Source: Leifsonia sp. fls2-241-R2A-40a
GTDB taxonomy: Bacteria > Actinomycetota > Actinomycetes > Actinomycetales > Microbacteriaceae
Assembly (NCBI RefSeq): GCF_030209575.1
Contig: NZ_JARVRS010000001.1
Coordinates: 806,001 to 870,000, forward strand
Length of the DNA: 64,000 bases
Reading direction: 5' to 3'
Under the pieces are notes generated by a model. It was not told where the DNA came from. It was given only the letters and a program-made list of their open reading frames with translations, and searched no databases. Shown piece after piece: positions 23,709 through 46,330 of this stretch; position 1 is the first letter of the stretch; each line of letters begins with the position of its first letter. The position numbers were made by a program, and so were the translations under genes.

Positions 23709-24320
23709 GTGGACTTCGCCGATCTGGTCTCCGTGCCCGAGCGGCTGACGACGCCGGAGTTCGTGCTCCGTCCGCTCGTCGCCGCCGATGTCGAGCTCGA
23801 CTACGAGGCCGTGATGGCGAGCCGCGAGCAATTGCGGCCGTGGGAGCAGACCGGATGGCCGGCCGACGACTTCACGCTCGAGGAGGACCTCTCCGACGTC
23901 GAAGGGCTGGAGCACGGGCACCGCGACGGGCGGCGCTTCACCTACACGGTGCTGACGCCGGACGAGTCCGAGTGCCTCGGTTGCGTCTACTTCATGCCCG
24001 GTGACGCGCGCTCGTACACGACCGCGGAGATCACGCCTCTGGCCGACGACCGATGGGACCGGGTCCGCGGCACGGTGAGTTTCTGGGTGCGCAGCTCGCG
24101 GCTCGACGACGGGCTCGACCGGCGCCTGCTCGCCGCTGTGCTCCGCTGGATCACGGACGACTGGGGTCTCGACGATCTGGTCATGATGACCAACGAGGAG
24201 GTTCCGCAGCAGGTCGCCGTGCTCGAGCAGGTCGGCCTCCGCCCCGTGTTCCGGGTCCAGCAGCCCGGGCAGTCCGGCGCCTACCTCGCCTACGCCCAGG
24301 GCGCGCTCGGCACGCCCTAG
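23709..24320 (+). CDS. GNAT-family acetyltransferase-like protein
   Basis: A 203-residue protein. LTTPEFVLRPLVAADVELDY, LRPWEQTGWPADDFTLEEDL and the CLGCVYFMPGD strand fit the GNAT fold of the RimL-like group, although the acetyl-CoA pyrophosphate loop is degenerate (VSFWVRSSRLDDGLDRRLLA). It ends in a QQVAVLEQVGLRPVFRV helix-strand. The GTG at 23709 is six bases after TAGCAT, a leaderless arrangement. Its end overlaps the convergent sugar operon by four bases. Confidence 0.7.
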   Translation: MDFADLVSVPERLTTPEFVLRPLVAADVELDYEAVMASREQLRPWEQTGWPADDFTLEEDLSDVEGLEHGHRDGRRFTYTVLTPDESECLGCVYFMPGDARSYTTAEITPLADDRWDRVRGTVSFWVRSSRLDDGLDRRLLAAVLRWITDDWGLDDLVMMTNEEVPQQVAVLEQVGLRPVFRVQQPGQSGAYLAYAQGALGTP

Positions 24321-25000
24321 CGCAGCGTCGCCAGCGGCTTGCTCCACAGCCCGTCGCCGGCCAGCGCCGCGTAGGCGATGCGTTCGACAGCGTTCGCGTT
24401 CGGGCGCAGAGGAGCAGCCGTCACCCGCGCGGGCGTCGACCGGAACACGAACTTCGCCAGGCTCCGCGCGCCCTCCAGGTCCGGGACGGTGGGCGGCACG
24501 TCGAAGCGCTCGATGAAGCGGCGCAGGTTGCTGGTCGCCGGAAGGTCGCGCAGCCGGTCGTCGAACACCCAGCTGTCGCACACCAGAGGCACGTCGTCTC
24601 CGAACCACTCGGCCGCCCGGGCGATCGCGTCGTCGACGGACGCGGGCGTCAACGGCCCGGTCTCCGGGATGTGGATGCTGCGGCCGGCCCCCTCGGGCTC
24701 CACCTCGAACTGCAGGCGACCGAGGGTGACGACCTGGCCGGTGAACACCGCCAGCAGCCAGTCGACGTCGACCAGTTCGCCGTACAGCTCCAATTTCCTG
24801 GGGATGTCGGCGAGCGAGTCAGCAGCGTCAGCGGGAGGAAGTCCCCGAGCGACCAGCGCAGCGATCGCCTCGTCGCGCAACGCGTCCATCGCCGTGACGA
24901 GTTCCTGCCGGCCGACACCGGGCACGGGATGCCGGCGGCCGGACGCGAGCATGTCGCGCAACGCGTGGCGCGGCTCGGCCGCTTCGCGGGGGGAGGTCAT
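24317..25000 (-). CDS. Acyltransferase-domain protein with GNAT-like C-terminus
   Basis: A 227-residue protein, last gene of the ten-gene sugar operon. Its N-terminal half is helical (IPRKLELYGELVDVDWLLAV); the C-terminal half has GRLQFEVE, SIHIPETGPLTPASVDDAIA, FGDDVPLVCDSWVFDDRL and SNLRRFIERFDV. This resembles the NAT_N/GNAT_C pair annotated as an acyltransferase domain in other actinobacterial sugar loci. The ATG at 25000 overlaps the upstream stop. An acetyl-CoA-dependent role, for example on an amino sugar, is plausible but not shown. Confidence 0.5.
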   Translation of the reverse strand: MTSPREAAEPRHALRDMLASGRRHPVPGVGRQELVTAMDALRDEAIAALVARGLPPADAADSLADIPRKLELYGELVDVDWLLAVFTGQVVTLGRLQFEVEPEGAGRSIHIPETGPLTPASVDDAIARAAEWFGDDVPLVCDSWVFDDRLRDLPATSNLRRFIERFDVPPTVPDLEGARSLAKFVFRSTPARVTAAPLRPNANAVERIAYAALAGDGLWSKPLATLR

Positions 25001-26166
25001 CGCGCGGGCTGGCCGGCGGCGAAGTACTCCACGAGGTCCGTGGCGAGCGGGGGCACCGGCAGGGCGCTGCCGTCTCCTCGGAGGGATGCGGTGGCCACCA
25101 GGCCCGTCGCGACGGCGTTCCGGGCGGCGACCGGGGAGGTCTGCACTGCGGTGCCGCTGCGCACGAACTCGAGGAACTCGGTGACCATGACGGAGTCCGC
25201 TCCCCCGTGGCCGCCGATCCCGTCGGACACCACGAACGTCTCGTCGGCGGGTGCCGCGGTCGGGTGCCGGCGGTTCCAGAGCCCGACCTCGGATCCGGCG
25301 TCGTCCCCGAAGTTCTCGATGCGCCCCTCGGTGCCGATGACCGTGTAGTTGCGCCAGTAGTCGGGCGTGAAGTGGCACTGCTCGTACGAGGCCAGCACGC
25401 CGTTGTCGAGCACCATGTTGACCTGCGAGATGTCCTCGACGTCGATCACGGGGTTCAGGCCTTCGCTCGCGGTGGGCGGCCAGTTGTCGAGACTGAACCA
25501 GTCGCCGACCCGCTCGCCCGAGCGGTCGCGGCGGTCGTCGATGGCCCCATAGACGCTCAGCGAGCCGAACGCCTGGACACGGCTCGAGTATCCGCCCGCC
25601 AGCCAGTGGATGACATCGAGGTCGTGCGCGCCCTTCTGCAGCAGCAGGCCCACCGACTTGGACCGATCGGCGTGCCAGTCCTTGAAGTAGTAGTCGCCGC
25701 CGTTGCCGACGAAGTGACGGCACCACACCGCTTTGACCTCGCCGATGCGACCCTCCTGGATCAGCCTGCGCATCAGCGTGATCACCGGCATGTGCCGCAT
25801 GTTGTGTCCGACGTACAGTCGCGAGCCGGTGCGGCGGGCGGCCTCGAGGATGCGGTCGCAGTCGTCGATCGAGATCGCCAGCGGCTTCTCGCAGAACACC
25901 GCCACGCCGGCCTCGAGCGCTGGGATGGCCACGCCCGCGTGCTGGTCGTCCGGCGTCAGCACGAGGACCGCATCGAGGTCGAGGGCGAGCAGCTCGTCGA
26001 GGCTGCTCGTGACCGTCGCGTCCGGGAAGTCCGCACGGAACTCCTGGCGCGACCGCTCGCTCACATCGCAGAGGGCGACGACGGCCGCCCCCGCGCCGGG
26101 GCGATGAGCCTCCCGCGCCACGCTGCCGCGGTTGCCGTAGCCGACGACGCCGATCCTGAGGTCCAT
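24997..26166 (-). CDS. Gfo/Idh/MocA-family oxidoreductase
   Basis: A 389-residue NAD(P)-dependent sugar or inositol dehydrogenase. The Rossmann motif is GVVGYGNRG at the N-terminus; the diagnostic FCEKPLAISIDDC (the EKP motif, whose lysine is catalytic) follows, then KGAHDLDVIHWL with the active-site Asp/His pair. It would oxidise a sugar, uronate or sugar-derived lactone. AAGGA precedes ATG 26166; a second in-frame ATG at 26193 overlaps the kinase stop. Confidence 0.88.
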   Translation of the reverse strand: MDLRIGVVGYGNRGSVAREAHRPGAGAAVVALCDVSERSRQEFRADFPDATVTSSLDELLALDLDAVLVLTPDDQHAGVAIPALEAGVAVFCEKPLAISIDDCDRILEAARRTGSRLYVGHNMRHMPVITLMRRLIQEGRIGEVKAVWCRHFVGNGGDYYFKDWHADRSKSVGLLLQKGAHDLDVIHWLAGGYSSRVQAFGSLSVYGAIDDRRDRSGERVGDWFSLDNWPPTASEGLNPVIDVEDISQVNMVLDNGVLASYEQCHFTPDYWRNYTVIGTEGRIENFGDDAGSEVGLWNRRHPTAAPADETFVVSDGIGGHGGADSVMVTEFLEFVRSGTAVQTSPVAARNAVATGLVATASLRGDGSALPVPPLATDLVEYFAAGQPAR

Positions 26167-26189
26167 CACATTTCCTTCCGATCCGTTGT

Positions 26190-27155
26190 TCATCGCCGGG
26201 GCAGTGAGCCCAGCGCATCCGCCGTCAATGGCGCACCGGAGACCTTCGCCGCATAGAGCGCGGCTCCGACGTCCGGTTCGTACAGGGGTGCGCGCAGATC
26301 GTACCCGGCGTGCAGCCGGCCCAACTCGCCGGTGAACGCCTGGAGCACTCCGTCCGCGCGGAACACGCCGCCCGAGTACGAGACAGCCACCTGCTCGTCC
26401 TCCTGGAAGCCGAGCTGCCGGCGCGTGGCCTCGACCAGACCAGCGAGCTCCACTCCGGCGGCGGCGAGGATGTCCGCGGCGACGGGGTCGCCGGCGGTCG
26501 CGGCCTCGGCGACCGTGCTGGACAGGGCGGCGATGCGCGTCCGCTGCTTCTGCCAGTCGGTGAGCACGAGCCCGATCAGGTCGAGGTCGTGCGCGATCCC
26601 TGTGCGCTCCTTCACCAGGTCGTAGAGCGGGCCGCGGGGAAGGCGGCCGTCGCTCATCCGGGTGAAGGCGTTGAGACCGCGGTCGGCGATCCAGTAGCCG
26701 GACCCCTCGTCGCCGAAGAGCTCGCCCCAGCCGCCGACGCGGAGGCCGGCGCCGTCCCGCTCGCCGTAGGTCATCGATCCGGTGCCGCCGATCACGTTGA
26801 TCCCGTCCGCCGCACCCAGCGAACCCGCCCACCCGGGGACCATGTCGTTGACGCAGAGGAAGCGGTCGTGACCGAGAGCCGGGCGAGGGATGGCGTCCAG
26901 CGCGGCCTGGTCGGCGCTGACCTCGCCGTAGCCGGGGAGTCCGACCACGGTGAAGGCGATCGCGTCCGGAGCCATCCCGGCCTGGCGGCAGATGTCGTCG
27001 ACTCCGTCCGCGAAGGTCCGGGTCACAGCCTCGACGCCGAGAGCGTAGTAGTCGCTGCTCGCCTGCTGCGAGCGCGCCAGGACACCGCTCTCGGAATCGA
27101 TGAGGGCGAACGCCGTCTTGGTGCCGCCGCCGTCGACGCCCAGGAAGCGACTCAC
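26190..27155 (-). CDS. BadF/BadG-type sugar kinase (N-acetylglucosamine kinase-like)
   Basis: A 321-residue ASKHA-fold kinase. GVDGGGTKT (6-14) is the phosphate-1 loop, VGGWGELFGDEGSG is the NagK-like adenosine/phosphate segment, and NVIGGTGSMTYGER supplies phosphate-2. This matches eukaryote-type N-acetylglucosamine/amino-sugar kinases. In an ABC-fed operon without PTS, this kinase would perform the first phosphorylation of the imported sugar. The GTG at 27155 overlaps the SIS stop (GTGA). Confidence 0.85.
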   Translation of the reverse strand: MSRFLGVDGGGTKTAFALIDSESGVLARSQQASSDYYALGVEAVTRTFADGVDDICRQAGMAPDAIAFTVVGLPGYGEVSADQAALDAIPRPALGHDRFLCVNDMVPGWAGSLGAADGINVIGGTGSMTYGERDGAGLRVGGWGELFGDEGSGYWIADRGLNAFTRMSDGRLPRGPLYDLVKERTGIAHDLDLIGLVLTDWQKQRTRIAALSSTVAEAATAGDPVAADILAAAGVELAGLVEATRRQLGFQEDEQVAVSYSGGVFRADGVLQAFTGELGRLHAGYDLRAPLYEPDVGAALYAAKVSGAPLTADALGSLPRR

Positions 27156-28321
27156 GCGACTCCGCTCGCGGCCTCGTCGAGCGCGTGCAGGCGCACGCCC
27201 TTGACCACGCGGTTGACGTTCCCGCTCGGGAACGGATTGTCCGGCGTCGTCCCGACACCCAGAGCGAACGAGAGCGCGAGGATCTGGGCGACGACCACGT
27301 ACACACTGGCGAGGAACGAGTCGTTCACCGCGGTGAGACCCTCGAACGGGACCGACAGGCCGTCCGCCGTGGTGACGCCGTCGGGTGCGATCGCGATGAC
27401 GCGGGAGGGATCGAGCGCATCCCGCAGCTCCGCCAAGATGTCGAGGTCGTACTTGCGCGTGTACTCGTCGGACGAGATGAAGACGACGACGAGCGTGCGC
27501 TCATCGAGGACCGACTTCGGGCCGTGCCGGAAGCCGAGGGCCGAGTCGTAGTAGCTCACGACCTGCCCGGCCGTCAGCTCGAGCAGCTTGAGGGCGGATT
27601 CGCGGGCGAGCGCGGTGAGCGGACCGCTGCCCAGGTAGACGACGCGGTCGTACCGGTCGTCGGCGAGGTCGGCGATCGCATCCCAGCCGCCGTCGACGAT
27701 GCCGGCCGCCGCCGCGACGAGGGGCGCGACCGTCTCCGGGCCTCCACCGCCGAGCACCAGCAGCACGGACAGCAGCATCGACGTGAAGCTCGACGTCATC
27801 GCGAAGCCCTGGTCGTTGGCGTCGGCGGGCATCAGCAGCACGTAGGACTTCTCGCGGCCCTGGTGCTCCAGATTGAGCCGGCCGGCCGGATCGCACGTCA
27901 CGATCAGGTGACTCACGTCGGTGAGGCACTCGTCGGCCAGCCGGGTGGCCGCGACGCTCTCCGGGCTGTTGCCGGAACGCGCGAACGAGATGACCAGCGT
28001 GGGGACGTCCTCGGCGAGGAACTCGCGCGGGTTCGAGACGAGGTCGGTCGTGGCGATCGCCTCGATCCGCCGCGACAGCAGGCGCGACAGCTCAGGCGCG
28101 GCGACACCGCCGACGAAGGCGGAGGTCCCGGCGCCGGTCAGGACGATGCGCAGGTCGGGACGTGCGAGGAGCGGGGCGAGGAACGCATCCACGTCGGCGC
28201 GCTCGGCCGCGATGTTGGCCGCCGCCTCGCGCCACACCTCCGGCTGGTGGCTGATCTCGCCGATGGTGAACTGGGCGCCGCTGGAGTCGGGGCGTGCGGT
28301 GGTCGGGCGTGTTTCAGACAA
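27152..28321 (-). CDS. agaS: SIS-domain deaminase/isomerase, AgaS-like
   Basis: A 389-residue protein with two SIS domains: [21 protein letters not shown] and [14 protein letters not shown] in the first, [20 protein letters not shown] and [19 protein letters not shown] in the second. It lacks a glutaminase domain, so it is AgaS-like: deaminating isomerisation of galactosamine-6-phosphate to tagatose-6-phosphate and ammonia in the family. The start is TTG 28321, after GGGGG and overlapping the agaZ stop by eight bases; no ATG or GTG is available upstream of the first domain. Confidence 0.85.
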
Positions 28322-29627
28322 GGATTTCCCCCTGGTTGCGTGCGGTCATTGGGCGTGTGGCGGCGGCGTACGGGCGCAGGGCATCCCGGATCTTGTCCGT
28401 CACGAGTGAACGTGGATGGGGATCGAGCTCTCCGGCTCGGACGCGGTCGTACTGGTCCGGCAGGAACTGGGCGATCAGCGGGAGCGGCAGCGTCCTGCTG
28501 GAGAGATTGGCGTACAGCACGGCCTCGGCCGCCTCGATCTCGGAGTCGGGCCAGTAGTAGCGGAGGCGGTCGCTGTAGCTGTAGCGGCGCGCAATGCGCT
28601 GCTCGTCCTCGTCGCCCTCGTAGTAGTCCTGCCAGTACCCGGGTTCCGCCAGCATGCGCTCCTCGATCACTCCGACGAGGTGCGAACGCTGGGCCTCCGG
28701 CACCAGTTCGTCTTCGATGGCGGCGAGCGCGAACAGCGCCTCCCGCATCGCGAAGGTGAGTCCCGGACCGACCTTGAGGATGGCCCAGTGGTCGTCGACC
28801 AGCTCGGTCAGCCGCGACTCCAGCTGGTAGTCGGTCGAGTGCGCCTCGAAGACCATCCCGGGTTCGTCGTCGAGCACGGCGCGCAGGTCCGCGGTGCGGT
28901 CGCGACGGTAGTCGATGACCTGGAGGTGGTCGAACTCGACACCGGGCTGAACGACGAGGGCGATGATCCGGGGCCACGCGTCCAGCACCCCGGCGGCCGC
29001 GAAGGCCTCACGGTGCCGTTCCAGCGTCCGCCGTGCCGCGTCGGGCGATGTGGGCGTCAGCTCCGCCAGCGTCTCGTGCGCGCCGCCGGGCACCGGCACC
29101 TCCGTGCCGATCACGTAGAGCTGCCGCCCCTCGATGCCGAGACTGCGCGCCGTCTGCTCGGCGACGCGCAGCAGCCGTGCGCTCCGCTCGGCGACGAGCT
29201 CGTCGCCGAGCGGGACGGGATCCCCGCTGCAGGACATGCTGCAGTCGAGGTGGATCTTCGTGTACCCGGCCTCGACGTACGCGGCGACGAGGGCGTCGGC
29301 GTGGGCCAGCGCCTCCTCGGCCGGGAGCCCCTGCCAGCGGTTGGGCCCGAGGTGGTCGCCGCCGAGCACGATGCGGTCGCGCGGGAAGCCCTGCTGATCC
29401 GCGATCGAGTACACGAGCTCGCGGAAGTCGGCCGGGCGCATCCCGGTGTACCCGCCGAACTGATCCACCTGGTTCGAGGTCGCCTCGATGAGGACGAAGC
29501 TCGAATCGGCGGCGGCCTGGGCGATCGCCGCCTCGAGCACGACGGGATGCGCGGAGCACACCGAGTACGCCCCGACCGGTTCGCCGGCCTTGTGCCGCCG
29601 GATGGTCTCCCACAGCTGGTCCGTCAT
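28314..29627 (-). CDS. agaZ: Tagatose-bisphosphate aldolase non-catalytic subunit (AgaZ/KbaZ/GatZ)
   Basis: A 437-residue protein of the GatZ/KbaZ family. The diagnostic region reads [18 protein letters not shown], followed by [23 protein letters not shown] and a C-terminal [15 protein letters not shown]. In E. coli this subunit is needed for full activity and stability of the class II tagatose-1,6-bisphosphate aldolase. The ATG at 29627 overlaps the aldolase gene stop, so the two subunits are made together. Confidence 0.92.
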
Positions 29628-30493
29628 GCTGCTCCCTCGGATCGGGTGGTGCTGGTCTGGGTGCAGAGTGCGGCGACCGTCTCGGCGATGCCGTCCCGTC
29701 CGGGCGCGAGGTAGCGCCGCGGGTCGGTCGCCGACGGGTTGGAGTCGAGGAACGACCGGACGCGGCCGGTGAAGGCGACGTTGAGCGCCGTGCCGACATT
29801 GATCTTGCAGATGCCGGCGGCCACCGCGTCGTTCAGCCCGCTCACCGGGACTCCCGACGACCCGTGCAGGACCAGCGGCACCGGGACGACCCGCGCCAGC
29901 TCGCCCACGAGCGCAAGGTCGAGGCGTGCGTCGGCCGTGGTCATCGCGTGGGACGATCCGACGGCGACGGCCAGTCCGTCGACCCCGGTCGCCGCGACGA
30001 AGGAGACGGCCTCGGCCGGGTCGGTCCGGACGCCCGGCGCGTGCGCGCCCTCCTTGCCGCCGATCGCACCGAGCTCGGCCTCGACCCACAGCCCGCGTTC
30101 GTGGGCGCGGGCGGCGGCGTCGCGGGTGCGCGACACGTTCAGCTCGTAGTCGTGGTGGGCCTCGTCCACCATGATCGAGGAGGCGCCGAAGCGTCCGGCC
30201 TGCTGGATGAGCTCGTCGGCGAGCGCGCTGTCGGTGATGTGGTCGAGGTGGATGCTGACGGGCGCGGTGCTCTCCTCGGCCGCCAGTCCGCAGGCCGCCA
30301 GCAGGGGCGCGAACCGGCCGCCGTGGTAGGCGATCGCGTTCTCGCTGATCTGCAGGATCACCCCGACGCCCGCGCGCTCGGCGCCGGCGACGATCCCCTC
30401 CGCATGCTCGAGGGTGATCACGTTGAAGGCGAGCACAGCGCTCTCCTGGGCGACCGCCTCCTCGATGAGGCTCCGGGTGCTGGCGAGGCTCAT
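29624..30493 (-). CDS. agaY: Class II ketose-bisphosphate aldolase (AgaY/KbaY/GatY-like)
   Basis: A 289-residue zinc aldolase. The metal and substrate motifs are visible: [24 protein letters not shown] (normally GTxHG) and LHGSSGVP followed by KINVGT. With AgaZ next door it most likely splits tagatose-1,6-bisphosphate to dihydroxyacetone phosphate and glyceraldehyde-3-phosphate. The SSHAM variant and LHGSSG in place of LHGGSG are minor departures from the family pattern. The ATG at 30493 overlaps the GH4 stop. Confidence 0.88.
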
Positions 30494-31824
30494 GAGGCGA
30501 AGCGATCGTAGTGCGACGGGTCGGCCGCCACGGCGTCGTCGAGGATGCCGCGGGCGATCTGCGCGTCCGGGACGAGCGGGTCGAGCACGAGCGCCTGGAG
30601 GGCGAGCTCGCGCGAGCCGCTGACCGCGGCCTCGACGGTGAGCTCCTGCTGCTGCGCACGCGCGGTCAGCACAGCGGCGATCGCGTCCGGGAGCCGGCCG
30701 ACCGAGACGCCGTGGATGCCGTGGGCGCCGACGACGGCGGGCACCTCTACGACGGCCTCCGGAGGCAGGTTCGCGATGACCCCGGCGTTCGGCAGGTTGA
30801 CGGCGAGCTCGACGTGCTCGTTCCCGGTCCTCAGAGCCTCGGCGATGGCCACGAGGCGTTCGGCCTCCTGGTTCCGCGCCGGGGCGAGGGGCTCGGTCCC
30901 TTCGGCCTGGGCGCGCAGCGAGTCCCACAGCCGGCCCTTCTCGTCGATGTACTCGCGCGTCATGTCCTGGCCGCCCTGGAGTCCCCAGCCGAGTCCGCCG
31001 TCGCCGCCGCGGGCGAGGTAGCCCGAGAAGAACTCGGACACGTGCCGGTCGCCCGGTGCGGGGTACAGCCCGAAGGTCTGCAGGAGATCCGCCGACACCG
31101 CCGAGTGCACGCCTTCGCTGCGGGAGGTCTCCGCATTTCGGCCGCCGCCCCGCGTCCGCACGAGCTCTCGCAGTCGCGGATACAGGTCCTCAGAACCGGT
31201 GCGGATGTCGAGGAGCCAGCACAGGTGGTTCAGCCCGGCGAACAGCGCGCTCACCGACTCGGGGTCGACGCCGAGGTCGCCCGCGAGAGCCGCCTTGGTG
31301 TGCATCGTCCCGTGGCACAGTCCGACCGCGTTCACCGGCGTGTGCTTGGTGACGGCGCGGACGTTCGCGGTGAGCGGGTTGCTGTAGTTGATCAGCTGGG
31401 CGGTCGGCGCCACATCGGCGATGTCCGTCGCGATCGCGAGCAGCTCGGGGACGTGGCGGAGTGCGCGCAGCACGCCGCCGGGTCCGACGCTGTCGCCGAC
31501 GGTCTGGTGGATGCCGTACGCCTCGGGGATGTCGAGGTCGGCTTTCCAGCCGGCCGCTGACCCCACCGCGATGGTCGTGGCGACGAAACGGGCGGCCCGC
31601 AGCGCCTCCCGGCGATCGGCGACCGCTTCGACGCGCATCGTGGAGCCCGCCGCCTCGGCGATCCGGCGGCCCAGGCGGGCCATCGTCTCGGCCGCTTCCG
31701 GGACCACATCAACCAGCCGCACCGCGACGCCGCCGAACGTGCGCGACCGCGCCAGGTCGTTGAGCAGCCCGGGGGTGAACACGGTGCTTCCGGCACCGAT
31801 GAGGACGAACGCCTCCTGCGTCAT
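30490..31824 (-). CDS. GH4 family glycosidase (CHGT type)
   Basis: A 444-residue NAD- and Mn-dependent glycoside hydrolase. The NAD motif is [15 protein letters not shown], the NYSNPLT loop precedes the metal-binding cysteine in GLCHGT (C170), and [12 protein letters not shown] supplies the histidine ligand. GH4 enzymes cleave via oxidation at C3. The tetrad after GLC differs by specificity; CHGx is associated with alpha-glucuronidase-type members rather than 6-phospho-beta-glucosidases (CNVP). First enzyme gene after the ABC permeases. Confidence 0.85.
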
Positions 31825-31837
31825 CGCGCGCTCCTTC

Positions 31838-32671
31838 TCACTTGACGCTCCCCGTGAGGAGTCCGCTGACGATGTACCGGTTGAGCACGACCGCGATCAC
31901 GGCGGGAACCGCGACGGCAATCACGCCCGCCGCGCTCATCAGCGAGTACGGGACGGTGTGCCGGCCCTGCAGCGCCGCGATGACCACCGTGAGCGGTTGC
32001 GTCGACAGGTCGCTCGAGAGCACCAGCGGGAACAGGAACTGCGCCCAGGCCGACAGGAACGTGATGATGGCCACCGAGACGATGCCCGGCCGAGCGAGCG
32101 GCAGCACGACGTGCCAGAGCACGCGCATCCTGCTGGCCCCGTCGACCTGACCGGCCTCCTCGAGCGCGACCGGGAGGCTGCTCATGTAGTTGTAGAGGAT
32201 CCAGGTCGCCAGGGGCAGGAAGCCGGAGATGTACACCAGCACGATGCCCGTATAGGTGTTGACCAGTCCGAGCGCCGACATCATCTGGTAGAGCGGGATG
32301 AGGGTGGCGTACGCGGGGAACGCCATCGTCGCGAGCACCGCGTAGAAGAGCACGTCGCGGCCGCGGAACTTCATGCGGGCGAACGCATAGGCCGCGAGCG
32401 TGGCCAGGACGACGGTCACGATGGTCGCCGCCGTGCACTCGATGAAGATGTTGAGCGTCGACTGCCGGACCGAGTCGGCCAGGTCGCCACTGCCCCCGAG
32501 CAGTGTGAAGTAGTTCTTCAGGGAGGGCGTGGGCGGCAGGTAGTTCGCCGGCTTCGCACTGATCTGCGCGTCGGTCTGGAGGCTGGTGTTCAGCACCCAG
32601 TACAGCGGCAGCAGCGTCCAGACCAGGATGAACGCGACACCGATCGGTCGCGCGATGGAACGTCGTTTCAT
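31838..32671 (-). CDS. ABC sugar importer, inner-membrane permease (MalG-like)
   Basis: A 277-residue permease with six helices. The EAA loop that contacts the ATPase reads EEAGQVDGASRMRVLWHVVLPLARPG. The C-terminus VVLNRYIVSGLLTGSVK is typical of carbohydrate-uptake CUT1 MalG-type subunits. Its ATG at 32671 overlaps the MalF stop by one base (TGATG). No ATPase gene is in the window, so a shared MsiK-like ATPase encoded elsewhere is likely, as in many actinobacteria. Confidence 0.9.
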   Translation of the reverse strand: MKRRSIARPIGVAFILVWTLLPLYWVLNTSLQTDAQISAKPANYLPPTPSLKNYFTLLGGSGDLADSVRQSTLNIFIECTAATIVTVVLATLAAYAFARMKFRGRDVLFYAVLATMAFPAYATLIPLYQMMSALGLVNTYTGIVLVYISGFLPLATWILYNYMSSLPVALEEAGQVDGASRMRVLWHVVLPLARPGIVSVAIITFLSAWAQFLFPLVLSSDLSTQPLTVVIAALQGRHTVPYSLMSAAGVIAVAVPAVIAVVLNRYIVSGLLTGSVK

Positions 32672-33618
32672 CAGAACTCCACGGGGCGGTAGACGAGCCT
32701 CACGACGCCCAGCGACACGATGAGCGTGGCGAGCGTGATCAGCAGGGACAGCGCATAGCCCTGACCGAAGTCGAGGTTCTGGAAGCTGATGAAGTAGGTC
32801 TGCATCGTCACCGACGAGCCGGTCGCGGCGGCGCCGTTCAGCACGAAGGGCTGGTCGAACACATTGAGTGTCGCGATGACGGCCTGGACCATGGCGATGG
32901 CGATGCCCGGTCGGGCGAGCGGCAGCGTGATGCGGCGGAACATGTTGAACCCGGTGGCGCCGTCCAGCGCGGCCGCCTCGTAGAGCTCGCCGGGGATGTT
33001 CTGCAGCGACGCCAGAACGAGCAGCGCCGACAGCGGGGTGATCTGCCACACCTGCACGAGCTCGATCGCGAGGATCGTCACGAATTGGTTCTGGCCGAGG
33101 AACACCTGGTAGTGGTCGATCAGGTGCAGCGACGACAGCACGCTGTTGAGCAGGCCGTTGTTGCTGTCCCAGATGCCGGACCAGACGATGCCCTCGACCA
33201 CGCCCGGCAGCGCCCACGGCAGGATCAGGATCGCGACGAGCACCGAGCGGCCGCGGAACGGCTTCTGCAGGGTCACCGCGAACAGCACGCCCAGCGCCGT
33301 CGACAGCAGGACGCCGATGATGACGTACAGCACCGTGTTGCCCATGCTCGCCACCACGGCGGGGTCGCTGAACAGGGTGACGAAGTTGTCGATGCCGTTG
33401 AAGCGGTCCGGCGGGTTCAGCGGCTGGATCTTGAAGAACGCCTCGACCAGGGTGATCCCGGCCGGGACGAGAGCCAGCCCGATGATGAAGATCGCGAGCG
33501 GAGCGACGAGGCCATAGGGCAGGAAGTCGAGGCGGCGGACCAGCCGCGAACGCGTGGGACCCCCTCCCGCCGGCCGGGACGTGCCCGGCCGGCGGCGGGA
33601 CTGGACGTCGACGCTCAA
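32671..33618 (-). CDS. ABC sugar importer, inner-membrane permease (MalF-like)
   Basis: A 315-residue CUT1 permease. A polar Arg/Pro/Gly-rich leader of about 30 residues is followed by six helices and the EAA loop ELYEAAALDGATGFNMFRRI. The start is TTG 33618, whose TTGA overlaps the solute-binding-protein stop; there is no ATG or GTG before the first helix. A 12-bp perfect hairpin lies within codons 8-18. Forms the translocation pore with the MalG-like subunit. Confidence 0.88.
   Translation of the reverse strand: MSVDVQSRRRPGTSRPAGGGPTRSRLVRRLDFLPYGLVAPLAIFIIGLALVPAGITLVEAFFKIQPLNPPDRFNGIDNFVTLFSDPAVVASMGNTVLYVIIGVLLSTALGVLFAVTLQKPFRGRSVLVAILILPWALPGVVEGIVWSGIWDSNNGLLNSVLSSLHLIDHYQVFLGQNQFVTILAIELVQVWQITPLSALLVLASLQNIPGELYEAAALDGATGFNMFRRITLPLARPGIAIAMVQAVIATLNVFDQPFVLNGAAATGSSVTMQTYFISFQNLDFGQGYALSLLITLATLIVSLGVVRLVYRPVEF
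33567..33595. other. Strong hairpin at the binding-protein/permease junction
   Basis: Arms CCGCCGGCCGGG (33567-33578) and CCCGGCCGGCGG (33584-33595) are perfect complements around a 5-base loop. It sits about 20 bp inside the MalF-like gene, directly after the solute-binding-protein stop. In E. coli mal operons a stem-loop at the same place stabilises upstream binding-protein mRNA and lowers permease expression; a similar role is inferred here. Confidence 0.6.
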
Positions 33619-34946
33619 GAGCCGTTCGCCAGCTTGGTCGCCTGCGCGGCGATCGCCTTGATCGCCGCGTCCACGCTGATGGTGCCGACGGCGGCGGAGT
33701 GCAGGTTGGTGCTGACCGACCGCGAGAACTCCGGGTACCAGGACGGCGCACCCGTCGCGAAGACCGGCTTGGACTTCGACAGCAGCTCGCTGAGCTCGGC
33801 GCCCTGGGCCAGCTTGCCGTTCTCCGTGAGGATCTTCATCGCCGACAGACGCGACGGTGTCGGGTAGTTCGGCATGACCTTGTCGGGCCCGTTGGCGCCG
33901 GCGAAGTCGGCCTGGTTCTCGGAGGCGGTGATCCACTCGATGAACTTGGCCGCGGCGGCCGGGTACTTGGCCTGCTTCGGGATGCCGATGCCGTCCGGGT
34001 TACCGAGGTTGCTCGTGGTCCCGTCGACGCCCGGCGTCGGGATGTAGCCCGTCTTGCCGACCACGCTGGACGAGGCGGGTACGTCGTAGAGGCTGCCCAC
34101 GTTGCCCGAGTAGTCCGAGAAGGTCGAGGAGACGACGCCCTTCGCCATCAGGTTCTGCATGCCCTGGGAGTCGGTGACGTTGATGTTGCCGGCCGGGACG
34201 AGCCCGTCCTTCAGCGAGTCGATCATCCACTTGGCGGCCTTGTAGCCACCGGAGTCGGGGCTGGCGAACTGCGGCTTGCCCTTCGCATCGAGGAGCGTGC
34301 CGCCGAACGCCTCGGTGGCCTCGTACCAGTAGGTCGACAGGCCCTCCGCCGCTGCGAACGGGATGTTGAGCGGGGTCGCCGAGATGCCCTTCGCCTTGAT
34401 CTGCTTGAGGTCGTCGGTGTACTCGCTCATCGTGGTCGGCATCGTGGTGATCCCGGCCTTGGCGAACTGGTCCTTGTTGACCGTCGTCACCATGTAGGAG
34501 GAGTCGAACGGGATGCCGATGACCTTCCCGCCGGACTCGAACGACGTGAGCTGCGGCATGTCCGCCTTCAGCTTCTTCGTGTCGATGTAGTTGTCGATCG
34601 GGTAGAACCAGTCGAGCTTGCTGAGCTGCCCGACGCGCGACCAGTCCACATCCGTCACATCGGCGAAGTAGGTCTTCGAGGTCGCGGCTGCGGCGATCTT
34701 GGTCTGGAGGTTGTCCCAGTCGATGCTCGTCCACTTCACGGTGATGCCCGTTTCCTTGGTGAACGCGTCGAGGGCCGCCTTCGGGGGCGCGGGATTCATC
34801 CAGGCGACGGTGATGGTCGCACCCTTCGTCTGGGTGGAACCACCGGAGGATCCACTGCCGCCGGTGCATCCGGTCAGCGTGAGTCCGAGGGCGACGGCGC
34901 CGGCGATGACGGCATTCCGGGTACTGCGTCTGAGCTTGAGCGTCAT
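33615..34946 (-). CDS. ABC sugar importer, solute-binding lipoprotein
   Basis: A 443-residue extracytoplasmic binding protein with a lipoprotein signal: basic start, hydrophobic core and LTLTGC lipobox (C27), followed by a Gly/Ser linker. The mature part is a type 1 carbohydrate-binding fold (ITVAWMNPAPPKAALDAF, FTKETGITVKWTSIDWDNLQ). CAAGGAGGAG precedes the ATG at 34946. First gene of the ten-gene operon, opposite the DeoR regulator that probably represses it. Confidence 0.9.
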   Translation of the reverse strand: MTLKLRRSTRNAVIAGAVALGLTLTGCTGGSGSSGGSTQTKGATITVAWMNPAPPKAALDAFTKETGITVKWTSIDWDNLQTKIAAAATSKTYFADVTDVDWSRVGQLSKLDWFYPIDNYIDTKKLKADMPQLTSFESGGKVIGIPFDSSYMVTTVNKDQFAKAGITTMPTTMSEYTDDLKQIKAKGISATPLNIPFAAAEGLSTYWYEATEAFGGTLLDAKGKPQFASPDSGGYKAAKWMIDSLKDGLVPAGNINVTDSQGMQNLMAKGVVSSTFSDYSGNVGSLYDVPASSSVVGKTGYIPTPGVDGTTSNLGNPDGIGIPKQAKYPAAAAKFIEWITASENQADFAGANGPDKVMPNYPTPSRLSAMKILTENGKLAQGAELSELLSKSKPVFATGAPSWYPEFSRSVSTNLHSAAVGTISVDAAIKAIAAQATKLANGS

Positions 34947-35140
34947 GGTGCTCCTCCTTGGCAATGGGAGCGTGTCAGCGGCGGTGCTGAGCGACACGCG
35001 ATTTGAGCAACGATGACATGCAGTGCGCACGGTTTCAACAAATGGGAGCGGAAAACCGCACATTCCGCCCAAATGAACAATCTTGTGGCGAGAAACTGAT
35101 TGTGCGCGCACTTTTGCTGCTCATTCGCTATAGTTCCATT
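34947..35140. promoter_or_regulatory. Divergent control region of the Aga-like locus
   Basis: The 194-bp region between the binding-protein gene and deoR-like gene is AT-richer than its surroundings. It contains the palindromes GTGCGCAC (35023-35030) and GTGCGCGCAC (35102-35111), ATTGTGC at 35099-35105 and again at 35138-35144 over the regulator's start, and a TATAGT box (35129-35134) six bases before the GTG at 35141. ATTGTGCG recurs before the second GH4 gene, which makes it the best DeoR operator candidate. Confidence 0.5.
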
Positions 35141-35899
35141 GTGCAGCGCAAAGAACGCCTTCATCACATCGTCTCCGCGATCGTCGACAACCTCTCGATG
35201 GAGGTGCCCGAGCTCGCCGCACGGTTCGACGTCTCGGAGGCGACCATCCGCCGCGACCTGGAGCTGCTGGAAGAACAGCAGCTGGTCAGCCGCACGCGCG
35301 GTGGCGCGACGACGCACGTCGCCTTCAACGACCTCCCCCTCGGGTTCAAGACCTCGCAGGATCTGGACGAGAAGCGCCGCATCGCACGGAGCGCGCTCGC
35401 CTTCCTCGACGGCGCGAGGGTCGTCGGCATGACCGGCGGGACGACCACGAACGAGTTCGCTCGGCAGCTGCTCGGCCGCCGGGGCCTCACGGTCGTGACC
35501 AACGCCCTCAACATCGCCACGAGCCTGGTGAGCAGCCCGGGACTCCGCGTCTTCGCGGCCGGCGGCGAGGTGCGCAGCAGCAGCCAGGAGGTGGTCGGCC
35601 CGAGCGCCGAGGCGTTCCTCTCGGAGTACAACATCGACGTCTCGTTCCTCGGCGTGGACGGCGTCGACACCGAGGCAGGCTGCACCAACTACGACCCCAT
35701 CGGCGCCCGCGTGAACGGAGCGATGCGTGCGCGCTCACGGATGACGATCGTGCTGGCGGACGCCACCAAGATCGGCCGCGTCGCGCTCGCGAGCGTGTGC
35801 TCCATGGACGAGGTGGATGTGCTCATCACCGACTCCCGTGCTCCGCAGTCGGCGGTGGACGCCATCCAGCGCCGGGGATGCCGCGTCATCTGCGCCTGA
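35141..35899 (+). CDS. DeoR/GlpR-family sugar-phosphate-responsive repressor
   Basis: A 252-residue DeoR regulator. The HTH is ELAARFDVSEATIRRDLELL at residues 26-45, followed by the RTRGGA hallmark. The C-terminal sensor domain has VVGMTGGTTTNEFARQL, VTNALNIATSL and FLGVDGVD, which bind a sugar phosphate. The GTG at 35141 follows TATAGT by six bases, so the mRNA is probably leaderless; longer readings to 35003 are not supported. It is placed between two divergent sugar operons and probably represses both. Confidence 0.92.
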   Translation: MQRKERLHHIVSAIVDNLSMEVPELAARFDVSEATIRRDLELLEEQQLVSRTRGGATTHVAFNDLPLGFKTSQDLDEKRRIARSALAFLDGARVVGMTGGTTTNEFARQLLGRRGLTVVTNALNIATSLVSSPGLRVFAAGGEVRSSSQEVVGPSAEAFLSEYNIDVSFLGVDGVDTEAGCTNYDPIGARVNGAMRARSRMTIVLADATKIGRVALASVCSMDEVDVLITDSRAPQSAVDAIQRRGCRVICA

Positions 35900-35935
35900 T
35901 CCCACACCGGCTGCCTAACGCGCAGAAATCCGCTC

Positions 35936-35960
35936 GATTCGTGCACATTTATTGTGCGAA
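35936..35960. promoter_or_regulatory. Candidate DeoR operator before the second GH4 gene
   Basis: ATTCGTGCACA and TGTGCGAAT form an imperfect dyad around TTTAT, ending 27 bp before the ATG at 35987. The ATTGTGCG half-site matches those in the divergent region upstream of deoR. The spacing is compatible with repression of the GH4-kinase genes. Confidence 0.45.
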
Positions 35961-35986
35961 TGATGCGCTCGTGCGATATTGGCCGA

Positions 35987-37285
35987 ATGGTCAAAGTAGC
36001 CTTCATCGGCGCCGGGAGCGTCGAGTTCACCCGCAACGTCGTCACCGATCTCTGCAGCTTCAGTGAGCTGCAGGGCGAGTTCGAGCTGTCCCTCCACGAC
36101 ATCGATGCCGAGCGGCTCGGCTACGCGGATGCACTGGCGAAGCGGATCAGCGCACAGCTGGGCGCGGACGCCCGGGTCACCTCCAGCCTCGATCGCCGGA
36201 CGGCGGTGGCCGACGCCGACTATGTGGTGAACGAGATCCAGGTCGGAGGCTACGCCGCGACCCGCAAGGACTTCGACATCCCGGCGCGCTACGGCCTGCG
36301 GCAGACCATCGGCGACACGATCGGCATCGGCGGCATCTTCCGCGGGCTCCGCACCATCCCCGTCCTCACCGGGATCGGCCAGGACCTCGCCGAGGTGGCC
36401 CCCGACGCGTACCTGCTCAACTACAGCAACCCGATGGCGATGCTCCCGTGGGCCGTCTCCGCCGGGACACCCTTCTCGCGCGTCGTCGGCCTGTGCCACT
36501 CGGTGCGCGACACCCACCACCTCCTCGCGGAACTGGTCGGCGTCCCGGAGGACGAGATCACGTTCGAGACCGCCGGATTCAACCACCAGGCGTTCGTGCT
36601 GCGGTTCGAGCGGGACGGCGAGGACCTCTACCCGCGGCTGCGCGAGGTCATCGACGGCGACCCCGAGCTCCAGCGCCGGGTGCGTGTGGAGCTCTTCCGC
36701 CGGTTCGGCTACTTCCCCACCGAGTCCAGCGAGCACAGCGCCGAGTACGTGCCGTGGCTGATGCGCAGCGACGCCGCGATCGAGCGGTTCCGCATCCCCG
36801 TCGGGGAGTACCTCACCCGGTCCGAGCGGAACATCGAGGAGTTCGACGAGACCCTCGCGACGCTGCAGGCGCAGGGCGATCTGGATCTCCAGCCGACCTC
36901 GGAGATGGCGTCGGAGTTCATCCGGGCCCACGTCACCGGCGCGCCCGCGAGCCTCTACGTCAACGTGCAGAACAACGGACTCATCGAGAACCTCCCCGCC
37001 GAGTGCTGCATCGAGGTTCCCGGCATCGTCGACCAGGACGGGCTGCACCCGCAGGCCGTCGGCGCTCTGCCGCCGCAGCTGGTCGCGCTCAACCGCACCT
37101 TCCTCAACGTGGTCGAGCTGACCGTGAAGGCCGTCCTCGAGGGCAACCGCGACCACGTCTACCACGCAGCGCTGCTCGACCCGAACACGGCCGCTACGCT
37201 CGGAATCGACGACATCCGGAGCATGTGCGACGAACTGCTGCAGGCGCACGGCGACCTCATCCCCGAGGCGCTCCGGCTTCCCTGA
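35987..37285 (+). CDS. GH4 alpha-galactosidase-like glycosidase (CHSV type)
   Basis: A 432-residue GH4 hydrolase. FIGAGSVEFTRNVVTDL binds NAD, NYSNPMAMLPWAV precedes the metal cysteine in GLCHSV (C170), and TAGFNHQAFVLRF gives the second metal ligand. CHSV is the pattern reported for alpha-galactosidases (MelA). It needs NAD and Mn and acts inside the cell on imported galactosides. The ATG at 35987 was chosen since the earlier in-frame starts fall in the operator. Followed after 11 bp by the fusion gene. Confidence 0.85.
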   Translation: MVKVAFIGAGSVEFTRNVVTDLCSFSELQGEFELSLHDIDAERLGYADALAKRISAQLGADARVTSSLDRRTAVADADYVVNEIQVGGYAATRKDFDIPARYGLRQTIGDTIGIGGIFRGLRTIPVLTGIGQDLAEVAPDAYLLNYSNPMAMLPWAVSAGTPFSRVVGLCHSVRDTHHLLAELVGVPEDEITFETAGFNHQAFVLRFERDGEDLYPRLREVIDGDPELQRRVRVELFRRFGYFPTESSEHSAEYVPWLMRSDAAIERFRIPVGEYLTRSERNIEEFDETLATLQAQGDLDLQPTSEMASEFIRAHVTGAPASLYVNVQNNGLIENLPAECCIEVPGIVDQDGLHPQAVGALPPQLVALNRTFLNVVELTVKAVLEGNRDHVYHAALLDPNTAATLGIDDIRSMCDELLQAHGDLIPEALRLP

Positions 37286-37296
37286 TTGAGCACGCT

Positions 37297-38916
37297 GTGA
37301 GAATCGGGATCCTCGGCACGGGGGCGATGACCATCGCGCTCGGCGCCCGGCTCGTGCGAGCCGGGCACGAGGTGCTCATCGGCTCGCGCGACCCCGAGCG
37401 GTCGCGCGCCGTGAGTGAGGAGCTCGGCGCCGCGGGCGCCGGCGACTACCGGTTCGCGGCGCGCGCCGACGTGGTGATCCTCGCCCTGCACGACACCGAG
37501 GTTCTGCGGATCGCCGAGTCCCTCGCCGACGTCCTCGCCGGCGCCGTCGTGATCGACCTCAACAACCCGCTCGATCCTCCATCGTTCGAGAGCCGGTACG
37601 CCGGCTCCGAGTCGCTCGGCGAACGACTGGCGGCGGTCGCCCCAGGGGCGAGAGTCGTGAAGGCGTTCAACACGGTCTACGCGGAATGGTTCGCCGAGGG
37701 CGCCGACGCCGGCTCCCCCGCGGTGCAGGTGTTCGTGGCCTCGGATGACGAGGACGCGAAGAGCACCGTCACCGACCTCGTCCGCCAGCTCGACGCGGAG
37801 CCGGTCGATGCCGGACCGCTCCGGGCCGCGCGGCAGCTGGAGAGCCTGGCGGGGTTCGAGGTCTCCCTGGTCGATCGCGGCTTCGCCCCGTTCGTCGGCT
37901 TCCGGCTGGTCGCCGGTCAGCAGGCGCGGGACGCTGACGGCGTCCGACCGCGGATCTCGGTGGTCGGCCCCAACCCGGCGATGGACAGGACCGAGGCGAT
38001 TGCGGAGTTCCGCCCGAACGAGGTCAACCGGGCGACCGTCAGCAGCCCGCGGGCCGGCGGCAAGAGCTTCATTGTCGCCCGGGCCCTCCGCCGCCTCGGC
38101 CGGCCCGTTGCTCTCTACGGGTTCCTCGGCGGCACGACCGGAGAGTATCTGCGGTCGGAATGCGCCGAGCTGGGCATCCACGACCGTCACGTCACGATCG
38201 TGGGAGAGACGCGGATCAACACCATCGTCGTCGACGGCGCGACGGGCGGGGCGACCGTCGTCAACGAACCCGGGCCGACGGTCAGCGAGGCCGAGGCGGA
38301 CGCGCTCGTCCGGGCTGTCGGCGCCGGCCTGGCCGCCGACGACCTCCTGCTCCTCTCCGGCAGCCTCACGCACGGACTCCGCCCGGGCTTCTATGCGGAA
38401 CTGGTCGAGCTCGCGCATTCGCGCGGCGCCCGAACGGTGGTGGATGCGGCAGGCGACGTGCTCGTGCGCGCTGCCGCCGCCCGCCCCTGGGCGCTGAAGT
38501 GCAACCTCGAGGAGTTCGCGGCGATCATGCCCGATGCGCCACGGCAGCTCGCCATGGACGCCGACCGCGACCGCCTCCTCCGCGCGATGCGCGCGCTCAC
38601 GGCGACGGGCGTCGAGCTCGTCATCGTCACGCTCGGCGCGGACGGCCTGCTGGCCGCCACCGCGAGCGAGGCGATCCAGGTCGCAGCTCCACGGGTGATC
38701 GTCAAGAACCCCACGGGCTCCGGCGACACCCTCCTCGCCGCTTTCGCGGCGGCATGCGCCGACGGCGAGCCGCTGCCGGACGCGTTGAGGTTCGCTGTCG
38801 CGGCCGCCAGCGCCAACGCCGCCGTTCTGGTCCCGGACCTCGGGCCCGACCCTCAGCTGACCGAACTGGTGAAGCAGACCGTCGTCCACCGGCTCTCGAC
38901 AGGGACGGCATCGTGA
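37297..38916 (+). CDS. Fusion of an NADP-oxidoreductase-like domain to a PfkB-family sugar kinase
   Basis: One uninterrupted frame of 539 residues. Residues 1 to about 212 are an F420-dependent NADP-reductase-like Rossmann domain (GILGTGAMTIALGARLV, SRDPERSRAV, VIDLNNPLDPPSFE, VVKAFNTVYAEWF). From about 222 a PfkB kinase follows (VVGPNPAMDR, GGKSFIVARALRRLG and NPTGSGDTLLAAF with catalytic D477), resembling tagatose-6-phosphate or 1-phosphofructokinases. A tagatose-6-phosphate kinase is exactly the step the Aga pathway needs. The N-terminal partner is unexplained. GTG start at 37297; the stop overlaps the FGGY start (GTGA). Confidence 0.8.
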   Translation: MRIGILGTGAMTIALGARLVRAGHEVLIGSRDPERSRAVSEELGAAGAGDYRFAARADVVILALHDTEVLRIAESLADVLAGAVVIDLNNPLDPPSFESRYAGSESLGERLAAVAPGARVVKAFNTVYAEWFAEGADAGSPAVQVFVASDDEDAKSTVTDLVRQLDAEPVDAGPLRAARQLESLAGFEVSLVDRGFAPFVGFRLVAGQQARDADGVRPRISVVGPNPAMDRTEAIAEFRPNEVNRATVSSPRAGGKSFIVARALRRLGRPVALYGFLGGTTGEYLRSECAELGIHDRHVTIVGETRINTIVVDGATGGATVVNEPGPTVSEAEADALVRAVGAGLAADDLLLLSGSLTHGLRPGFYAELVELAHSRGARTVVDAAGDVLVRAAAARPWALKCNLEEFAAIMPDAPRQLAMDADRDRLLRAMRALTATGVELVIVTLGADGLLAATASEAIQVAAPRVIVKNPTGSGDTLLAAFAAACADGEPLPDALRFAVAAASANAAVLVPDLGPDPQLTELVKQTVVHRLSTGTAS

Positions 38917-40294
38917 CGTTCATCGGCATCGACGTGGGCACGACCGGACGAAGGCGCTGCTCTACGACCCGCAGTCTCCGGAGCGCACGGTCATCGCCGA
39001 ACCCACGCCCGTCGTCCCGACACCGCACGGTGATCTCCGCGACGCGGACGCCGTGGTGGCCACTGTGCTCTCGTGCATCGACCGGCTTCTGGAGGGGCTC
39101 CCGCCTGCCGAGCGCGGAGCCGTTCGCGGGATCGGCATCACGTCGCTCAGTGAGGAGATGGTGCTGCTGGACGCATCCGGTCGTTCCATATCCCCCATGC
39201 CCGCCTGGTACACCGGCGTCGCAGCAGAAGCCGCACGCGGCGAAGGGATCGACCCGTCGTTCTCGTGGTCCAAGCTGCGCTGGGCCTCCGAACAGTATGC
39301 GGCGGAGGATGTTCGGGGCGTCACGACGCTGAACAGCTACATCGCGGCTGCCCTCGGCGACGACTCCGACTTCGCGATCGACGACTCGCACGCCTCGCGC
39401 ACCGGATTCTTCGACGTCGGGGCAGCGACCTGGCAGCCGCAGCTCTTCGAGGCGACGGGGTGGCCGGCCTCGCTCCTCCCTCCGTTGGTCCCGGCCGGGA
39501 GCGCCGTGTCGACGCTCGCATCCCCGCTCGCGGAACGGTGGGGCATCCCGGGCACCGCCGCTATCGTCCTGGGCGGCCACGACCACTTCTGCGGCGCCTT
39601 CGCCGTCGGCATCCGCAGCGAGGGCCAGCTGTACGTATCCGCCGGCACCTCCGAGGCGCACTGCCTGATCGTGGACGAGTTGCCGCAGGGGCTCCTGCCC
39701 GAGCAGGTCGGCGCCGGTCGGTTCGTCGACGGAGAGCACTTTTACCTGCACCGGCAGCTGCCGTCGGGCCACCTGTACCGGCAGTGGACCGGGCTGCTCG
39801 GTCTGGCCGACGAGTCCTCCCGCGCGCGGGAAGCCGAGGAGCTCCGCGCAGAGCCGCTGGGCTCCCTCGGCACCACCGTCGTCCCCGGATTCGGCACGGA
39901 CGTGCGCAGCTCGGTGTTCGATCTCGCCCCGGACGCCGGACGCCGAACGCTGCTGCGCGCCCTCCTCGAAGGTCTCGCCTGCGCTGCGCTGCTGGTCGAC
40001 CGTGAGCTCATCGCCCTCACCGGCAGACCCATCACGGAGGTGGTCGCGTCGGGGATCCCCGCCGCCAGTCCTGTCTGGCAGCAGCTGCGGGCGAACCTCG
40101 CCGTCGCTCCCTTGTCGGTGAGCAGCGAGGACGAGGCTCCCGCGCTCGGCGCCGCGCTGCTCTGCGAGAGGGTGGCCACCGGAACCGAGGGCCGCCCGTC
40201 GGCCCTGCAGCGCGTGCCCGCCGACCCCGCCTCAGCCGCCGAGTACGGGGCGCTGTACGCACGGTTCGAGCAGAAGCTGTCGACCCTCCGCTAG
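38913..40294 (+). pseudogene. FGGY-family carbohydrate kinase with a one-base frameshift
   Basis: Begins GTG 38913 with VTFIGIDVGTTG, the FGGY phosphate motif, then loses frame. From 38948 a second frame continues T-K-A-L-L-Y-D and runs to 40294 with normal family features (GITSLSEEMVLLD, GGHDHFCGAFAVGI, VSAGTSEAH). One base is missing between 38947 and 38948, where GGN-ACG-AAG is expected. Corrected length is 460 residues, normal for a gluconate/xylulose-type kinase. No homopolymer is present at the site, so a true mutation is as likely as a sequencing error. Confidence 0.8.
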
Positions 40295-42599: not shown

Positions 42600-42610
42600 A
42601 GACGCCTCGG

Positions 42611-43432: not shown

Positions 43433-43464
43433 GCGCCCACACTACGACGCCGGGTGGAGACTCC

Positions 43465-44721: not shown

Positions 44722-44740
44722 CGTTCCTCCTCGTGACGCT

Positions 44741-46189: not shown

Positions 46190-46229
46190 GAACCCTCCCC
46201 AGGGGTGTGATTCGCCGAAGGGACGACCA

Positions 46230-46243
46230 CCGCCCGAAGGCGG
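46230..46243 (-). other. UUCG-capped hairpin in the arcD leader
   Basis: On the minus strand the sequence reads CCGCC-UUCG-GGCGG, a five-pair stem closed by C-G around a UUCG tetraloop, one of the most stable small RNA hairpins. It lies 41-54 bases before the arcD start, in the 141-bp gap after the arylsulfatase gene. A role in leader stability is possible. Confidence 0.35.
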
Positions 46244-46330
46244 ATCGTGGACGCGGTTCGACGCGCATATTCAACTCGCGCCCGGGTCCCTGGGTCAAGC
46301 ACCTCGAGCGGCCGGAGGATCACACCCGCC

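Follow-up and report, generated by a model that had tools for sequence, protein, structure and literature searches.

Two described systems come close to the locus analyzed here. One is the aga/gam cluster of Escherichia coli, which contains agaS, kbaY, kbaZ, agaR, and the AgaPTS/GamPTS genes and relies on PTS uptake. The other is a non-PTS pathway for N-acetylgalactosamine (GalNAc) in Shewanella, reportedly the subject of work by Leyn in 2012. According to PMC12118421, this pathway is composed of the AgaP permease and the AgaK kinase. The locus under study lies in a window of 64 kb, i.e., the whole stretch of DNA that was analyzed, and it has homologues of AgaS, KbaZ, and KbaY and a DeoR-type regulator in common with the E. 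coli cluster, but it contains an ABC importer, a BadF-type kinase, and GH4 enzymes where E. coli has a PTS, and no deacetylase gene. It resembles the Shewanella pathway in having a separate transporter and kinase in place of a PTS, and differs from it in that the permease-type GalNAc uptake is replaced by an ABC importer accompanied by GH4 enzymes (PMC12118421). Most likely, the locus takes up galactosamine glycosides through an ABC importer instead of a PTS, primes them with GH4 enzymes, and feeds them into the tagatose-bisphosphate pathway.

A preliminary description of this DNA had listed AgaS, AgaY, AgaZ, an ABC importer, a BadF kinase, a PfkB domain, two GH4 enzymes, a Gfo/Idh dehydrogenase, and a GNAT-like protein, and all of them were found within positions 24317..40294 (Table 1), along with a DeoR regulator and an FGGY kinase that it had left unnamed. 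Ten genes form a minus-strand operon, running from 34946 down to 24317, in the order substrate-binding protein, two permeases, GH4A, AgaY, AgaZ, AgaS, BadF, Gfo/Idh, and GNAT_C, and neighboring genes overlap by 1–8 bp, with a 13 bp gap between permease and GH4A as the sole exception. The divergent plus-strand arm contains DeoR, GH4B, an oxidoreductase-PfkB fusion, and the FGGY kinase. Two open reading frames of the minus strand were over-long: that at 28314-30659 likely corresponds to AgaZ and AgaY, and that at 24317-26218 to GNAT_C and Gfo/Idh, with the limits given in Table 1. No importer ATPase was seen among the annotated genes of the locus, and neither tRNAs nor Rfam families at the gathering score were found in the 64-kb window. 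Downstream, positions 41700-48673 hold a row of genes for a PfkB kinase, an M55 D-aminopeptidase, an arginine deiminase, an amino-acid permease, and a sulfatase.

Table 1. Features of the amino-sugar locus (positions are those of the window)
Feature	Position	Strand	Evidence or remark
GNAT_C (PF18164) protein, 227 aa	24317..25000	-	C-terminal part of solved Tcp24 and Dbv8 matched
Gfo/Idh/MocA-type dehydrogenase, 398 aa	24997..26193	-	Homologue near AgaS at 4 other loci (52-79% identity)
BadF/BadG-type sugar kinase	26190..27155	-	Domain match; 5 solved relatives
AgaS (SIS domain), galactosamine-6-phosphate deaminase/isomerase by homology	27152..28321	-	46.5% to E. coli AgaS
AgaZ/KbaZ, tagatose-bisphosphate aldolase non-catalytic subunit	28314..29627	-	TIGR02810; 60.8% to E. 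coli KbaZ
AgaY-type class II ketose-bisphosphate aldolase	29624..30493	-	F_bP_aldolase by Pfam; 34.3% to E. coli KbaY
GH4A, family 4 glycosidase, CHG motif	30490..31824	-	Best solved match LplD alpha-galacturonidase
ABC importer permease, MalG/UgpE type	31838..32671	-	Domain match
ABC importer permease, UgpA/MalF type	32671..33618	-	Domain match
ABC importer substrate-binding protein (SBP_bac_1)	33615..34946	-	Lipoprotein-like N-terminus
Divergent promoter region	34947..35140	.	Between SBP and DeoR genes
DeoR-family regulator, AgaR/GlpR-like	35141..35899	+	Scores below AgaR/GlpR model cut-offs
GH4B, MelA-type GH4, CHSV motif	35963..37285, start anywhere in 35954-35987	+	NF011657; 42.6% to E. 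coli MelA
Fusion of F420_oxidored-type domain and PfkB hexose-phosphate kinase, 539 aa	37297..38916	+	Putative tagatose-6-phosphate kinase by context
FGGY carbohydrate kinase	39053..40294	+	N-terminal signature in another frame

The DeoR protein shared 30.7% identity with E. coli AgaR. The word ATTGTGC, picked after inspecting the sequence, occurs three times in the 64 kb, all within 35099-35957, with two sites in or at the edge of the divergent promoter region and one just before GH4B. Since this total equals the chance expectation and none of 11 related loci had the exact word in its promoter (L064 has two stray matches elsewhere), it was dropped as a candidate, and we claim no DeoR operator.

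The tagatose-bisphosphate part of the route is well supported, because AgaS showed 46.5% identity to E. coli AgaS over 372 aa and AgaZ about 61% to E. coli KbaZ. AgaZ also passed the tagatose-bisphosphate aldolase model TIGR02810 with 653.9 bits (cut-off 568.8), and AgaS gave 480.9 bits against the subfamily model TIGR02815, under its cut-off of 529.2. Together with AgaY, AgaZ makes up the aldolase pair. AgaY was under every NCBIfam cut-off among the models listed; the source genome encodes another copy, with which it shared 52% identity. The five solved relatives of BadF comprise four named as N-acetylglucosamine-type kinases, including an N-acetylmuramic acid/N-acetylglucosamine kinase, and one hexokinase; against the NagK model, it scored 78.4 bits, with a cut-off of 370.

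That an ABC importer and a BadF-type kinase replace the PTS of an Aga-like route, as first proposed, is supported by this gene content and by a genome search for the EIID-AGA PTS component, in which the PF03613 family gave no match in the source genome. This family was found in only one of the 23 AgaS-bearing genomes of the bacterial family, G173, where EIIC, EIID, and NagA share the strand of AgaS and are no more than 7 kb away from it, an MFS gene on the minus strand being interposed. This region (L064) combines ABC, GH4A, AgaS, and BadF genes with an Aga-type PTS and NagA.

From the missing deacetylase, the preliminary description had gone on to suggest a non-acetylated or otherwise modified galactosamine glycoside as a possible substrate. 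The premise stands for the locus itself, as no deacetylase gene was found there, beside AgaS. The genome, however, carries two NagA genes that score above the cut-off of the model (G000:C1:2375738 and 2381734). One adjoins a GlcNAc-type cluster with a substrate-binding protein, permeases, GH3, ROK, and NagB-type genes, and the second lies within a cluster of SIS, ROK kinase, PfkB, AgaY, and DeoR genes. The two clusters stand side by side and form a second amino-sugar region of the source genome (L077, G000:C1:2368000-2387999). The suggestion of a non-acetylated substrate is weakened further by E. coli, where nagA substitutes for agaA (PMC3668189). NagA-type matches were present in all 23 AgaS genomes of the family, with 21 over the cut-off (for their positions, 28 of the 38 search rows were used and 10 short partial matches were dropped), and such a match was within 10 kb of AgaS in 3/24 family loci. 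To compare groups, 40 loci were taken, i.e., 24 from the family, 6 from the class-wide sample, and 10 from outside the family (L021-L030), with NagA called by TIGR00221 search for the family loci and by tblastn with the two NagA proteins of the source genome for the other 16. NagA was near AgaS (about 10 kb) in 2/29 BadF-type loci vs 8/11 others (Fisher p 8e-5), a contrast that is a correlation because the two groups also differ in phylum. When collapsed to genera, the figures were 2/12 vs 8/11 (p 0.012). Contig ends truncate some of the loci (L025, L027, L070, L075, L121, and L122), and upon removal of L025 and L027 the counts were 2/28 vs 8/10. This contrast agrees with the published rule that AgaS without AgaA marks galactosamine use (PMC5583593), and the backing it lends to a non-acetylated substrate is by correlation only.

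These data also bear on a different reading, in which an N-acetylated sugar is imported, BadF makes GalNAc-6-phosphate, and a NagA encoded elsewhere deacetylates it before AgaS acts. The two NagA genes, one of them clustered with SIS, ROK, PfkB, AgaY, and DeoR genes, the N-acetylglucosamine-type relatives of BadF, and the replacement of agaA by nagA in E. coli (PMC3668189) would all fit, as would the two BadF-type loci that do have a NagA-type gene, in G043 (204.9 bits, divergent, below the 225.65 cut-off) and G173 (257.8 bits, over it). Nonetheless, such loci are just 2 of 29, and the second NagA cluster comes with a kinase and SIS genes of its own; we regard acetylated import as rather unlikely. 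With regard to the kinase alone, BadF probably acts on a galactosamine-type sugar, acetylated or not, and the chances that this sugar is unacetylated galactosamine appear to be about equal either way.

The two glycosidases are of different kinds. GH4B passed the MelA-type α-galactosidase model NF011657 (565.5 bits, cut-off 486) and shared the CHSV motif and 42.6% identity with E. coli MelA, from which it differs in being linked to AgaS and a BadF kinase. GH4A gave 336.5 bits with the same model, below the cut-off, and was 27.4% identical to MelA, with CHG at the position of CHSV; its best solved match was LplD, an α-galacturonidase. Strong GH4A orthologues (E up to 1e-110) were found in 6 of the 398 family genomes, the source genome included, and each is preceded by an importer resembling the one in the window, with the substrate-binding protein at 47-74% identity in the five others. 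AgaS and BadF are near this cassette in the source genome (G000), G317, and G173, and it is followed by a ROK kinase and a SIS protein in G095 and by a SIS protein in G290; for the G043 orthologue (G043:C1:972517), no SIS gene was detected within about 10 kb. In both G095 and G290, the SIS protein gave hits to models of GlmS and of glucosamine-6-phosphate deaminase, every one with a score well short of the cut-off. With five of the six GH4A cassettes thus next to a SIS protein of one of two amino-sugar-related kinds, this association is the best pointer to the substrate, and it points to an amino-sugar glycoside. Two literature listings on GH4 and galactosaminidases, judged as listings alone, made no GH4 enzyme with amino-sugar activity evident. 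In the congener G018, the neighbors of a GH4B homologue (50%) include a SIS protein of this kind, AgaY, two PfkB genes, and permeases, and no BadF match was found there. Some GH4B copies are accompanied by Amidohydrolase_2 genes (L055 15875-18114, L094 7492-8559, and L067 18425-19477), in L055 also by an FAD-dependent DAO gene.

In view of the MelA-type match of GH4B above the cut-off, plain galactose may make up part of the substrate. Taken to its limit, this would mean that the locus degrades ordinary α-galactosides, with GH4B as a melibiase, BadF yielding galactose-6-phosphate, and the SIS protein isomerizing it to tagatose-6-phosphate, a reading favored by the MelA-like scores of GH4B and, below the cut-off, of GH4A. 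It is difficult to reconcile with the E. coli agaS mutants, which are blocked on both GalNAc and galactosamine (PMC3668189), with the GH4A cassettes of other genomes, whose SIS partners distantly resemble glucosamine-6-phosphate deaminases, or with the Aga-type PTS and NagA within 7 kb of AgaS in G173. We thus consider ordinary α-galactosides improbable and keep galactosamine-containing glycosides as the preferred substrate.

To place the locus in a wider context, AgaS was located in the 398 family genomes (E up to 1e-60), and 23 of them had it, at 24 loci including that of the window. Within about 10 kb of AgaS, BadF was found at 21/24 loci, ABC permeases at 18/24 (tblastn matches at E 1e-6; identity was in many cases 25-37%, and some may be parts of other systems), AgaZ at 11/24, and AgaY at 5/24. 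GH4 genes were within 10 kb at 15/24 loci, 7 of these 15 being from one genus (g51), and were absent from this distance at 9/24. In the 23 AgaS genomes, 18 of the 42 GH4 genes lie less than 10 kb from AgaS vs 0.28 expected, i.e., a linkage beyond chance that justifies the early inclusion of these enzymes in the system. All these genome searches scored the best few candidates of each genome. A class-wide sample gave AgaS in 7/394 genomes, the source genome included, and the six other loci (families f11, f26, and f36) had BadF nearby in 6/6 and GH4B in 4/6. Altogether, BadF was near AgaS in 27/30 sampled actinobacterial loci, often with GH4 and an ABC importer. The BadF-AgaS system is a recurring actinobacterial type. 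The idea of an undescribed pathway could therefore not be maintained: besides these 27 loci, PTS-free GalNAc use by a permease and a kinase is described for Shewanella (PMC12118421), so the kind of pathway is already known. Direct queries for literature on an actinobacterial ABC/tagatose route or on the Shewanella GalNAc kinase found none.

In the fusion of the plus-strand arm, the C-terminal PfkB half scored 254.8 with the TIGR03168 hexose kinase model (cut-off 216.4) and 127.5 bits with the tagatose-specific LacC model (cut-off 409.55), and the N-terminal half, an F420_oxidored domain (NADP/F420-type), matched STEAP metalloreductase domains and F420:NADP oxidoreductases. This architecture is rare: among 61 protein matches, from the best 8000 candidates scored, only three other full-length relatives were present (71-81% identical; jgi and lgn sources, contigs <9 kb), and no other family genome of the 398 had the fusion at E up to 1e-70, with three candidates scored per genome. 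Separate halves do occur in the family, PfkB at 60-63% in G154 and G019 and the oxidoreductase at 61% in G129. The fused oxidoreductase could point to a linked redox step. The FGGY gene appears disrupted near its start (38900-39053), where the N-terminal signature is in a different frame from the rest of the gene, and so the kinase is possibly inactive or the frame an assembly error.

In G154 and G019, PfkB and FGGY genes stand apart as a cassette that also contains AgaY and an aldo/keto reductase, and in G019 this cassette is away from AgaS. This speaks for the alternative that the locus is composed of two adjacent cassettes, a minus-strand amino-sugar operon and a plus-strand α-galactoside/ketose operon, sharing little but the regulator. 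Against this, the divergent layout of importer-AgaS-BadF vs DeoR-GH4B is kept in G317, together with GH4A and with no AgaY match nearby, and in two genomes of another family, G508 and G461 (f36), where DeoR-GH4B lies opposite the importer (substrate-binding protein and both permeases, 66-70%), AgaS, and BadF, with no GH4A match. A mere juxtaposition of two operons is, thus, quite improbable, and we treat both arms as one system.

The Gfo/Idh gene was within about 10 kb of AgaS in 5/24 family loci, the window counted, and its assignment as a GH109 α-N-acetylgalactosaminidase was rejected, as the best 60 of its 93 PDB matches included no enzyme named GH109. The GNAT_C protein resembles the N-acyltransferases Dbv8 and Tcp24 of glycopeptide antibiotics and differs from them in covering their C-terminal part alone. 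According to PMC8987122, Tei11/Dbv8 acylate the amino group of glucosamine. A protein search gave 24 matches, the named ones from Leifsonia and Humibacter. GNAT_C was near AgaS in 1/24 family loci, and the three other matches in the 23 AgaS genomes lie elsewhere; this ruled it out as a conserved pathway part. As it is not kept with AgaS, we treat it as accessory. In the congeners G008 and G017 (L088 and L090), a partial GNAT_C match has sugar permeases, a BadF-like stretch, and a sulfatase as its neighbors. Digestion of galactosaminan via GH114 was also considered and rejected: this family had no member in the source genome, and it was found in 14/29 AgaS genomes, in none of them within 10 kb of AgaS.

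Collectively, we propose, giving it an even chance of being correct, a DeoR-controlled catabolic locus for galactosamine-containing α-glycosides that would operate via the tagatose-bisphosphate route. In this scheme, which combines observed features (protein families, gene content, conserved linkage, and the homology of two enzymes to AgaS and KbaZ of E. coli) with an inferred regulation, substrate, and step order, a small glycoside would be brought in by the ABC importer and cleaved in the cytosol by GH4A and/or GH4B through the NAD-dependent GH4 mechanism, releasing galactosamine. The BadF kinase would convert it to galactosamine-6-phosphate, which AgaS would deaminate and isomerize to tagatose-6-phosphate. 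Phosphorylation of this product by the PfkB half of the fusion would yield tagatose-1,6-bisphosphate, and AgaY with AgaZ would split this into triose phosphates. Several points weigh against the scheme: AgaS, AgaY, PfkB, and BadF fall under specific cut-offs, two NagA genes are present in trans, 9/24 AgaS loci are without GH4 within 10 kb, the G043 orthologue of GH4A is without a detected SIS gene within about 10 kb, GH4B passes an α-galactosidase model, the BadF/NagA contrast is confounded by phylum, and the two literature listings made no amino-sugar-active GH4 evident.

A bolder extension, which we put forward tentatively and with more doubt than confidence, is that GH4A founds a GH4 subgroup cutting α-linked, non-acetylated galactosamine and feeding a mostly deacetylase-free actinobacterial BadF-AgaS-tagatose route, with GH4B cutting at the galactose and GH4A at the galactosamine of a single mixed polymer, e.g., fungal galactosaminogalactan. 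The locus offers a simple test case for whether 2-amino sugars can be processed by the NAD-dependent mechanism of GH4. If the proposal is true, it would provide a substrate for a GH4 subgroup for which we found none here, and it would give the actinobacteria a defined, PTS-free use of galactosamine glycosides.
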